The position numbers and the translations under genes are program-made. Shown here piece after piece: positions 29,915-56,860 of a stretch of DNA of 64,000 bases. The notes beneath the pieces were generated by a model. It was not told the DNA's origin, made no database searches, and saw only the letters and a program-made list of their open reading frames with translations. Within the stretch, counting starts at the first letter, position 1. Each line of letters begins with the position of its first letter. The stretch is from Sulfurovaceae bacterium (GTDB lineage: Bacteria; Campylobacterota; Campylobacteria; Campylobacterales; Sulfurovaceae): NCBI GenBank assembly GCA_028715055.1, contig JAQTLE010000003.1:248001-312000 (forward strand), read 5' to 3'.

Positions 29915-29987
29915 ACTATATATGTAGAAGTCGAATTATATCCAATTATTGCTTAAAAACCATGTTTGATGACTAGATTTACTTTTA

Positions 29988-30114
29988 TACCTTTCTTTTT
30001 ACTAAAGAAAGGTAACCAAAGAAAAGCGTCACCACTCACGAACCGCTACGCTAGATTTTTGCGACATATGCTCAAAATCTCGCTGCTTTTCGAGCGTTCG
30101 GGTGACATTATTTT
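29988..30114 (+). repeat. Family A two-hairpin repeat, copy 1
   Basis: Hairpin I TACCTTTCTTT/AAAGAAAGGTA; GCGTCACC closing arm; hairpin II AGATTTT/AAAATCT; closing GGGTGAC; end ATTATTTT. It lies between tRNA-Arg and the uracil-DNA glycosylase-like gene. No coding potential. Confidence 0.85.
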
Positions 30115-30149
30115 AAATGAATTGCTTCTTGTCTTGCAATGACACGCTA

Positions 30150-31885: not shown

Positions 31886-31931
31886 TTTCGTTCCTTATTA
31901 TATTATCGGGTTGATTTTTCATCTTTGTTTA

Positions 31932-32056
31932 TACTTTTCTTTTTATAAAGAAAAGTAACAAAAGAAAAGCGTCACCACTCACGAATCGCGACGTACGATT
32001 TTTGCGACACGTGCTCAAAATCGTCCTGCTTTTCGAGCGTTCGGGTTACATTATTT
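31932..32056 (+). repeat. Family A two-hairpin repeat, copy 2
   Basis: Hairpin I TACTTTTCTTT/AAAGAAAAGTA (C to T paired with G to A relative to copy 1); hairpin II ACGATTTT/AAAATCGT. Followed by ATTATTTT and a fragment GTCATCGCGAACAAAGTG (32096 on) that recurs at 36136. Confidence 0.85.
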
Positions 32057-32129
32057 TCTAGAAACTGCTTCGTCATTTGATTTCTCGCAATGACTGTCAT
32101 CGCGAACAAAGTGTGGCGATACATTCTCT

Positions 32130-32681: not shown

Positions 32682-32735
32682 TTTTTTCCTTATTTAGTTA
32701 ATCTCGTCTTTGCGAGACTCAGAGATGTTTGTCTA

Positions 32736-32859
32736 TACTTTTCTTTTTATAAAGAAAAGTAACAAAAGAAAAGCGTCACCACTCACGAATCACGACGCAT
32801 AATTTCTGCGAAGCCTCTCGAAATTATGCTACTTTTCGAACGTTCGGGTGACATTATTT
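32736..32859 (+). repeat. Family A two-hairpin repeat, copy 3
   Basis: Hairpin I TACTTTTCTTT/AAAGAAAAGTA. Hairpin II is wholly different in sequence, GCATAATTTC/GAAATTATGC, yet fully complementary. It lies in the 327-bp gap between the porin and pssA, which also holds the porin terminator. Confidence 0.85.
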
Positions 32860-32951
32860 ATTATATATTGCTACATATTTATTCACAACACTAATATAAG
32901 ATAATAACAAAAAATGGATAAAAAAGAGGAGATAATAGGAGAAAAATAGGC

Positions 32952-34508: not shown

Positions 34509-34653
34509 ATTTTGAAGAGAGTGGAATTATAGCGTATAAAGTTTAAGGTTTGCTGAAATTAATGGATAATTAATGTAATTTCTTTGCTAGTCGCCACAAG
34601 GACAGACTTCCGCCATCCTGAACTTGTTTCAGGATCTTTAACTTGTTTTTTAC

Positions 34654-34763
34654 TACCTTTTTATAAAGGTAGCGCCAAAAGCGTCACCACTCACGAACCG
34701 CGACGCTAGATTTTTGCGACATATGCTCAAAATCTCGCTGCTTTTCGAGCGTTCGGGCGACAT
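34654..34763 (+). repeat. Family A two-hairpin repeat, copy 4
   Basis: Short hairpin I TACCTTT/AAAGGTA; GCGTCACC...GGGCGAC closing stem; hairpin II AGATTTT/AAAATCT. It is preceded by the ATCCTGAAC/GTTTCAGGAT palindrome at 34614-34637 and followed directly by a family B copy. Confidence 0.85.
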
Positions 34764-34770
34764 CCACTCC

Positions 34771-34835
34771 GTCATGCCGAACTTGATTCGGTATCCACTC
34801 TCTTATGGATTCCGTGTTGTAGCACGGAATGACGG
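34771..34835 (+). repeat. Family B double-hairpin repeat (best-preserved intergenic copy)
   Basis: GTCAT-GCCGAACTTGATTCGGT-ATCCA, joint, TGGAT-TCCGTGTTGTAGCACGGA-ATGACGG. Both hairpins are intact and the outer GTCAT/ATGAC ends are complementary. It ends just after the murD stop region. Confidence 0.8.
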
Positions 34836-39025: not shown

Positions 39026-39187
39026 GTCATCCTGAACTTGTTTCAGGATCTATAAAGAGTTTTTCTTTCACTACTTTTTTAGAAAAAGTAGCACAAAAAG
39101 CGTCATCCTCACGAACCGCTACGCAAGATTTTTGCGGCATATGCTCAAAATCTCGCTGCTTTTCGAACGTTTGGGTGACATTATTTT
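39026..39187 (+). repeat. Family A copy 5 preceded by an ATCCTGAAC palindrome
   Basis: 39026-39051 is the GTCATCCTGAAC/GTTTCAGGATCT palindrome. 39072-39187 is family A with hairpin I CTACTTTTT/AAAAAGTAG and hairpin II AGATTTT/AAAATCT, ending GGGTGACATTATTTT. It fills most of the 282-bp gap after gpmI. Confidence 0.8.
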
Positions 39188-39298
39188 AAATGGATTGTTT
39201 TTTTCATCTTGTGGCGAATCATAAAATTAAGATAAAATCAATAAGGTAATAATTTTTTATGATATGATTTTATAAATGATTTTACGCAAGGACAATCT

Positions 39299-50087: not shown

Positions 50088-50200
50088 GATACTTTTTTAT
50101 AAAAGTATCGCAAAAATCGTCATCCTCTCGAATCGCGACGCGAGATTTTTGCGACATATGCTCAAAATCTCGCTGCTTTCAAGGTCGTTCGAATGACATC
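50088..50200 (+). repeat. Family A two-hairpin repeat, copy 6
   Basis: Hairpin I GATACTTTT/AAAAGTATC; hairpin II GCGAGATTTT/AAAATCTCGC, the longest perfect arm. Closing arms GTCATC and GAATGAC. It lies between the convergent exonuclease and gamma-carbonic anhydrase genes. Confidence 0.8.
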
Positions 50201-54633: not shown

Positions 54634-54701
54634 TAACATTCTACGCTAAAAAATATTTTGTGGTATAATAAAATATCTATATTCAATCAAAAGAGTCAAT
54701 C

Positions 54702-56633
54702 ATTTATTACTATCACATCGCATTATTAAATTCATCGGCCCCAATATTTACATATCATTCTGCTGAGTCATTGGAGATCGGCTCTATAGTGCAAGTACCC
54801 GTAAAAAGCACAATCAAGGATGCTGTTGTATTAATAAAAACATCAAAGCCGGAGTTTGAGACATTGGCCGTGTCTGATATTACTAACAAGTATTACAATA
54901 CTATGCAATTAGAGCTTGCCAGATTTATATCATCATATTATTTTTCATCAATATCTGAAGCATTGGCTTTGTTTATACCGTTTGAAAATGTGGAATGGAG
55001 AAAGGAGAAGGAAGAAGAAGACAATATGTCATTCCTGCGAAGGCAGGAATCCATTATGGATCCCCGTGTCAAGCACGAGGATGACGGAAAATTGAAGGCC
55101 GAGGACGATATGGTACTACTGCCCACCCTTACCGCCGCCCAACAAAAAGCATTGCAAGAGATTGAAACATACCAAAGAAGTTTACTCTTTGGAGTAACCG
55201 GCGCAGGGAAAACAGAGATATTTATACACCTAATAAACCAGGCTATAACCAATAACCAAAACGTGATAATGCTTATGCCGGAAATTGCCCTTACTCCTCA
55301 GATGCTTGAGCGTCTTAGTAAATATTTTGGCAATAATGTAGTTATCTGGCATTCGAAACTTACTAAAAATCAAAAAGAAAATATCTTGAGCCGTATTGCT
55401 TCAGGCGAAGTGCATATAGTTGCCGGAGCCAGGTCAGCTTTGTTTGTACCGCTCGAAAACATAGGACTGATAATTGTAGATGAAGAGCATGATGATAGCT
55501 ATAAATCAATGACAAGGCCACGTTATCATGCTAGAGATGTAGCAGTATTGATAGGAGAAAAAATAGGAGCAAAAGTTGTATTGGCTTCTGCAACGCCGTC
55601 AGCTTCATCATATCACAAATATCCGATAGTCAGGCTCAAAGAAGCCTATATATCTACAGCCAAAAGCTATAAATTTATAAGCGGAGACAGTGTGAACAGT
55701 GAGTGTATAAAAGCACTCGACAACACAATAAAACAAAGTGAGCAAGCTATAGTATTTCTACCTACGCGCGGTAATTTTAAGTATCTTTATTGCCCGTCGT
55801 GCGGAACAACACACAAATGCCCGTTTTGCTCTGTAGGAATGGCGCTCCATCGTAATCATAAACATCTTAGATGTCATTATTGCGGCTATACAGAGTCGAT
55901 AGCTCAAAGCTGCAGCGAATGCGGATATGCACCTTTGAGCAGTGAACGCATAGGCACAAAAGAGGCGATAGAACTTATAAACGAATCATTGCCCAAGGCA
56001 AGAGTAGTACAATTTGATAAAGACAGCATCACTACACCAAAGAAATTAGGTTTGGCTTTATCGCAATTGGCCAACAAAGAGACAGATATATTAGTAGGCA
56101 CTCAGATGCTAAGCAAGGGTCATGATTACCCGGATATCACATTAAGTATAATCATGGGGCTTGATTACATGCTTGGCTTAGCTGATTATAGAGCCAAAGA
56201 AAGAGCGATCAGTTTATTGTTTCAGATAGCCGGAAGAAGCGGAAGAACTAAAGATGCTTTGATTTATATCCAAAGCTCGCATAGCCATTTCTTTGAACCG
56301 TTTTTGAGTGATTATGAACTGTTTTTGAGAGATGAGCTTGAATTTAGACGCATAGCATCATATCCTCCGTTTGTATCAATGGCTAGAGTGCTTATAGCTC
56401 ATGCTAAGCCTGATGTAGCCGAAAAACAATTGAGCAATACTTTAGAGGCATTAAAAGGCTTTAATAATATCGAGATAATAGGATACGGCAAAGCTCCGGT
56501 CGAAAAGATAGCAAGTCGTTATCGATATCATATCTTGCTTCGTTCAAATAGCAAAAAAGCATTGCTTACTGCTCTTCATGCGATAGCAAAAAGAGGAATA
56601 GAAATAGACATGGACCCGGTGGATTTTTCGTAA
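54702..56633 (+). CDS. priA: Primosomal protein N' (PriA) with in-frame repeat insertion
   Basis: 643 residues if translation starts at ATT 54702, preceded by AAGAG at 54691-54695. The residues that follow (YYYHIALLNSSAPIFTY) match the conserved PriA N-terminus; the first canonical start, TTG 54771, would remove 23 of them. Helicase motifs are GVTGAGKTE, VDEEHDDSYK and GTQMLSKGHDYPD. Eight zinc-site cysteines lie in CPSC, CPFC, CHYC and CSEC. Residues 109-129 are encoded by a family B repeat and lie in the linker before the helicase core. PriA restarts collapsed replication forks. Confidence 0.92.
   Translation: MYYYHIALLNSSAPIFTYHSAESLEIGSIVQVPVKSTIKDAVVLIKTSKPEFETLAVSDITNKYYNTMQLELARFISSYYFSSISEALALFIPFENVEWRKEKEEEDNMSFLRRQESIMDPRVKHEDDGKLKAEDDMVLLPTLTAAQQKALQEIETYQRSLLFGVTGAGKTEIFIHLINQAITNNQNVIMLMPEIALTPQMLERLSKYFGNNVVIWHSKLTKNQKENILSRIASGEVHIVAGARSALFVPLENIGLIIVDEEHDDSYKSMTRPRYHARDVAVLIGEKIGAKVVLASATPSASSYHKYPIVRLKEAYISTAKSYKFISGDSVNSECIKALDNTIKQSEQAIVFLPTRGNFKYLYCPSCGTTHKCPFCSVGMALHRNHKHLRCHYCGYTESIAQSCSECGYAPLSSERIGTKEAIELINESLPKARVVQFDKDSITTPKKLGLALSQLANKETDILVGTQMLSKGHDYPDITLSIIMGLDYMLGLADYRAKERAISLLFQIAGRSGRTKDALIYIQSSHSHFFEPFLSDYELFLRDELEFRRIASYPPFVSMARVLIAHAKPDVAEKQLSNTLEALKGFNNIEIIGYGKAPVEKIASRYRYHILLRSNSKKALLTALHAIAKRGIEIDMDPVDFS
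55028..55087 (+). repeat. Family B double-hairpin repeat inside priA
   Basis: 60 bp: GTCAT-TCCTGCGAAGGCAGGA-ATCCA, joint, TGGAT-CCCCGTGTCAAGCACGAGG-ATGACGG. The length is a multiple of three and no stop is introduced; it is translated as SFLRRQESIMDPR...HEDDG. Sequence on both sides is Glu/Lys-rich linker. Confidence 0.88.
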
Positions 56634-56660
56634 TTTATAGTTTTTGGTTCACTGTTTTTC

Positions 56661-56780
56661 TACCTTTCTTTTTAAAAAGAAAGGTAACCAAAGAAAAGCG
56701 TCACCACTCACGAACCGCAACGCAAGATTTTTGCGGCATATGCTCAAAATCTTGCTGCTTTTCGAGCGCTCGGGTGACAT
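56661..56780 (+). repeat. Family A two-hairpin repeat, copy 8
   Basis: Hairpin I TACCTTTCTTTTT/AAAAAGAAAGGTA; hairpin II GCAAGATTTT/AAAATCTTGC, which differs from copy 6 by a paired G-A and C-T change. It lies between priA and ispG. Confidence 0.85.
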
Positions 56781-56860
56781 TGATTTATATAATAGAAGAT
56801 AGTATTATAGTTTATTGTGATAAAATCACCTATATAATTATGAGCAGATGAAAGTACAAA

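Follow-up and report, generated by a model that had tools for sequence, protein, structure and literature searches.

Since the work on Rickettsia it has been known that palindromic repeats can lie in frame within genes for replication and repair. The Rickettsia element RPE-1 is like the insert reported here in being a palindrome inserted in frame that adds residues to housekeeping proteins, but by its description it is set apart as a longer and distinct element. The CGTC-tagged REPs defined by Di Nocera et al. (2013; PMC3733652) include RPE-4 and RPE-6 of Rickettsia conorii together with dRS3 of Neisseria, and Sulfurovum sp. NBC37-1 carries both CGTC and GTAG repeats. The same study reports REPs within replication and repair genes, some of them in frame, and attributes no dedicated transposase to the CGTC repeats. 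Its intragenic REPs of one functional category lie mostly at differing sites, recB being the gene that is hit at the same site in two Xanthomonas species, and its text does not name PriA. A further described system, the REPtrons formed by GTAG REPs and RAYT (Y1 transposase) genes, is matched by relatives of our locus, where many PriA linker inserts are GTAG...CTAC dimers and RAYT-like genes adjoin such repeats; it differs from the locus itself, whose insert is of the CGTC type and whose genome has no detectable Y1 transposase. The kind of element described here is known; what is new is the recurrent, multi-family and fast-turnover occupancy of one linker.

The window, that is, the whole stretch of 64,000 nucleotides that we analyzed, belongs to a 1.76-Mb Sulfurovaceae genome. 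The host gene is priA, and it is intact. The features of the locus are as follows.

54702-56633, plus strand: priA (replication restart helicase), start codon uncertain; defined by a homology-extended open reading frame, Pfam matches and fold matches.
54972-55124, plus strand: codons of the variable linker from the 3'-DNA-binding domain (3'BD) to the helicase core (IPFENVEW ... LLPT); pLDDT below 50 at model residues 116-133.
55027-55086, plus strand: CGTC-type REP heterodimer, an in-frame insert in priA, 60 bp from tag to tag, predicted to encode about 20 residues (SFLRRQESIMDPRVKHEDDG).
55027-55053, plus strand: left unit, with tag TGTC, 8-bp stem, 4-nt loop and tail CCA; CGTC-1 pattern.
55057-55086, minus strand: right unit, with tag CGTC, 9-bp stem, 5-nt loop and tail CCA; CGTC-3/4 pattern.

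The open reading frame runs from 54771 to 56633, and homology with other PriA proteins starts at about 54699-54705. Because no ATG, GTG or TTG lies upstream of 54771, and given where the homology begins, the start is likely to be ATC at 54699 or ATT at 54702. Positions 54690-54771 of the window hold none of these three codons in priA ahead of residue 23 of the conserved 3'BD, and in the relatives L011, L013 and L108 priA likewise has no ATG in the start region. The product matches the Pfam families PriA_3primeBD, DEAD, Helicase_C, Zn_ribbon_PriA and PriA_C, and its best PDB matches, by sequence and by fold, are PriA; together these place the 3'BD, the helicase lobes, the Cys-rich region and the C-terminal domain. 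Its relatives are PriA proteins of Sulfurovum and other Sulfurovaceae, the closest full-length one at 83% identity.

The left hairpin reads TGTC-ATTCCTGC-GAAG-GCAGGAAT-CCA and the right one, on the minus strand, CGTC-ATCCTCGTG-CTTGA-CACGGGGAT-CCA; both stems are paired at every position, G-U pairs included. None of 200 shuffles folded as stably as the element (z = -4.3), and its G+C content is 0.55 versus 0.39 for the gene. The element is open in two of three coding-strand frames and in one of three on the opposite strand, so that its passage in frame is not improbable. The peptide fragment SFLRRQESIMDPR is predicted from this frame. A first-pass annotation, made from the letters of the sequence, had described a 60-bp element with two hairpins at 55028-55087, adding about 20 residues to priA in frame and without a stop, in the linker before the helicase core, and had likened it to Rickettsia palindromic elements. 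The length, hairpins and frame were borne out by reading the sequence and by the comparison with shuffles, while the coordinates were one base off. The gene assignment is confirmed by PriA_C, PriA_3primeBD, Zn_ribbon_PriA and the fold, the linker position agrees with the AlphaFold model and the alignment, and the likeness to Rickettsia holds in that RPE-4 and RPE-6 are themselves CGTC REPs (PMC3733652).

CGTC-tagged REPs have an unpaired tag (CGTC, or TGTC/CCTC) at one end, a stem of 8-9 bp opening with complementary AT, a loop of 4-5 nt and a short unpaired tail, mostly CCA; they are multi-copy, lie chiefly between genes, are often dimeric and have no flanking tyrosine transposase. The window element has TGTC at the left and CGTC at the right, CCA on both units, and the same stem and loop lengths, AT stem start, dimeric form and mostly intergenic copies; a Y1 transposase (PF01797) was not found in the window genome, which agrees with the report that CGTC repeats have no dedicated transposase (PMC3733652). 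Since tag, stem, loop and tail all fit the published definition, the element is a CGTC-tagged REP dimer, of an RPE-like kind that is already known. The GTAG tag of RAYT-mobilized REPs is absent from it. It departs from the published CGTC REPs in that a single linker here holds many families across one bacterial family. A search of the flanks for a target-site duplication gave only the similar words GACAATATG and GACGATATGG, which are weak and imperfect. We rejected an RNA gene at 55018-55096, where the Rfam match to the Francisella sRNA FtrB scores 39.8 bits, below the gathering threshold of 66; the sub-threshold match suggests that the FtrB family overlaps a CGTC-type palindrome.

Copies of the priA element occur elsewhere in the window genome with E-values down to 1e-13. 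Among the 18 matches to CGTC-type units that we examined there, only the priA copy lies within a convincing gene. The statement of the first-pass annotation that the other copies are intergenic was upheld, with the refinement that some fall within short repeat-made open reading frames or an N-terminal over-extension. Genomes of the same genus have up to 25 matches to CGTC-type units. The window also holds six copies of another repeat, about 140 bp long (GTAACCAAAGAAAAGCGTCAC...), one of them directly downstream of priA.

56652-56792, 29980-30120, 31923-32063, 32727-32867, 34635-34775 and 39053-39193: copies of the family of about 140 bp, with a partial copy near 50093.

Comparison with relatives identifies the segment as an insertion. 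In the other Campylobacterales families the link between 3'BD and helicase core is 18-24 residues long in 19 of 20 genomes, the exception being a low-complexity link of 50 aa without a recognized repeat; in G004 and G008, which belong to the genus group of the window genome, its length is 20 aa. Because the window segment is absent from these short links, its residues are inserted rather than native, as had been claimed. Close relatives carry different inserts, so that we found no empty site whose flanks agree with the window at every base. In the alignment of PriA from close relatives, which had been suggested as a check, simple presence or absence would mislead: the closest relatives hold unrelated repeats. 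The insertion is real, yet it is not the peculiarity of one gene copy that it had seemed, as unrelated repeats occupy the linker across Sulfurovaceae.

The AlphaFold model of the window PriA has an overall pLDDT of 88, falling below 50 in the link, and so places the insert in a connection, predicted to be disordered, that runs from the 3'BD to the helicase core. In E. coli PriA a mobile winged-helix domain separates the 3'BD from helicase lobe 1 (PMC10175261; PMC13377028). The window protein lacks the winged-helix domain that E. coli and K. pneumoniae have at this place, where the model and the fold match give only the disordered link; the second-best fold match is 6dcr, a crystal form of E. 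coli PriA without the winged helix. Its absence is a lineage trait and no sign against PriA identity, since the other Campylobacterales families also have only the 18-24 aa link in 19 of 20 genomes.

We compared the link in 78 PriA proteins with both flanks aligned, of which 45 have long links (more than 24 residues, a cut chosen once the lengths had been seen) and 33 short ones; repeat families were assigned by end motifs and peptides. The linker is the sole internal position in this alignment with inserts of at least 15 aa. Mfd, the only control protein, has one internal insert, of 16 aa, across 30 Sulfurovaceae genomes. Ranked by structure against the rest of their gene, 31 of the 45 long links and 0 of the 33 short ones fall in the top 5%. 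The inserts comprise CGTC units, several GTAG families, CTCGTTCCC units and tandem repeats such as AGCGTTC, all in frame; those of separate families are non-homologous, and their peptides are unrelated in sequence. Within the window group, CGTC dimers occupy the linker in the window genome (G000), STA_25 and UBA7648, and GTCATTGCGAGG-type elements do so in UBA5622 and two SulCav genomes. Marine Sulfurovum linkers contain CTCGTTCCC...GGGAACGAG dimers and GTAG...CTAC dimers, the latter with five or more types of stem; the tandem repeats are found in other genomes. Four inserts (L065, L067, L079 and L082) are decayed and show no strong pairing. The PriA linker is thus a recurrent landing site, not a one-off.

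For CGTC, CTCGTTCCC and three of the five GTAG groups we confirmed dispersed genomic copies, mostly intergenic; for the GTAGC, GTAGGGGC, TTGCGAGG and RHSGLDPES types we did not. One genome has 51 matches to the CTCGTTCCC type, and of about 20 CTCGTTCCC places other than priA that we read there, none lay within a convincing gene. What looked like another insertion, in the helicase core of UBA7648 PriA (L108), is a run of N in the record and was rejected. In L097 (JACXUO010000031.1, 640-830) the 3'BD and linker are mostly deleted and out of frame, through an assembly fault or in a broken gene.

Occupancy turns over quickly. PriA of L078 and L090, from sister species, are 96% identical outside the linker, yet the first carries a CTCGTTCCC dimer and the second a GTAG dimer; L084 and L093 against L089 (92-93%) show the same CTCGTTCCC/GTAG swap. 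Among the pairs that differ in hairpin family, the rest of PriA is 91-96% identical. A quick tree of PriA without the linker, in which many forks are weak, requires at least 18 changes for 34 repeat carriers in eight families, a count that is indicative only and could be inflated by exchange of linker alleles between species.

In-frame units also occur outside PriA in Sulfurovaceae, in a methyltransferase-like gene, an alanyl-tRNA synthetase and others. The 820-aa methyltransferase-like open reading frame (G007, L259, 346-2805) contains two separate in-frame CGTC units, SVIPAKAGIH and SVIPAQAGIH. In-frame GTAG units are found in L192 (G074), L280 (G076), and L276 and L300 (G060, G063), with an alanyl-tRNA synthetase, an FAD oxidoreductase-like gene and a 421-aa open reading frame as hosts. 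Y1 transposase (RAYT-like) genes are present in most of the Sulfurovaceae genomes compared, and in three they are flanked by copies of PriA-linker palindromes.

G061:C231:19640-20305, G060:C131:27209-27872 and G027:C77:18275-19021: Y1 transposase (RAYT-like) genes between palindrome copies.

The reading that we consider probable is an insertion-tolerant linker in which resident repeats settle again and again, subject to selection for reading frame. The CGTC-tagged dimer inserted into the link joining 3'BD to the helicase core, and palindromic units abundant in each genome would land repeatedly there. In-frame insertions would do little harm there, because only a short flexible connection stands where other PriA proteins have the winged-helix domain. 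The GTAG and CTCGTTCCC units were probably mobilized by RAYT-type Y1 transposases, and the CGTC units would have moved by an unspecified route. Purifying selection would retain only frame-preserving insertions, which may later decay or be deleted, or may give way to a new insertion or to a linker allele acquired by recombination with a relative. Tolerance by itself may fall short of explaining so high an occupancy by repeats.

The insert might instead be kept for a function, with a hairpin in priA mRNA or DNA tuning the PriA level, or with the length and charge of the linker partly replacing the winged-helix domain. We regard this as unlikely. Most Sulfurovaceae species examined are occupied, hairpin is swapped for hairpin with the frame kept, and many species have hairpins of great stability; but the 33 short links of 78 leave many Sulfurovaceae with short, unpaired links, and the existence of decayed inserts, the unrelated peptides of different families and the tandem repeats at the same site all speak against it. 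Quite unlikely, too, is a maintained slot for interchangeable hairpins, in which selection would favor the presence of a hairpin or of a long linker while the resident repeat families take turns in supplying it; if true, such a slot would serve a PriA that has no winged helix by regulating either its synthesis or its binding to forks.

Also unlikely is that the hotspot stems from targeted insertion and not from tolerance, with a transposase or the repeats themselves preferring this exact position. Some GTAG dimers do end in CCTAC, coinciding with the native Pro-Thr codons of the link (CCTACx), and most of the genomes compared have RAYT-like genes, but CGTC, CTCGTTCCC and tandem repeats occupy the linker without a CCTAC end, insert boundaries vary by several codons between families, and the window genome has no Y1 transposase. 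An assembly or binning error that merged an intergenic repeat into priA is extremely improbable: the assemblies are of MAG type, repeats break contigs, and the frame-shifted L097 is a possible assembly fault, but the frame is open on both sides of the element, independently assembled genomes, including the single-contig G031, hold in-frame inserts at the same site, and errors would fail to preserve the reading frame across so many linkers. The idea that PriA had these residues ancestrally and that they resemble repeats by accident, for which nothing speaks beyond their being in frame, is refuted by near-identical DNA copies between genes of the window genome and by their absence from PriA of other families.

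With tolerance, colonization and frame filtering as the favored reading, the many repeat families in one linker, with swaps at 96% PriA identity, constitute a natural allele series of an essential-type helicase. In-frame repeats may be neutral passengers or may change the protein that hosts them; this series bears on that question and allows direct tests of neutrality, selection and insertion targeting.
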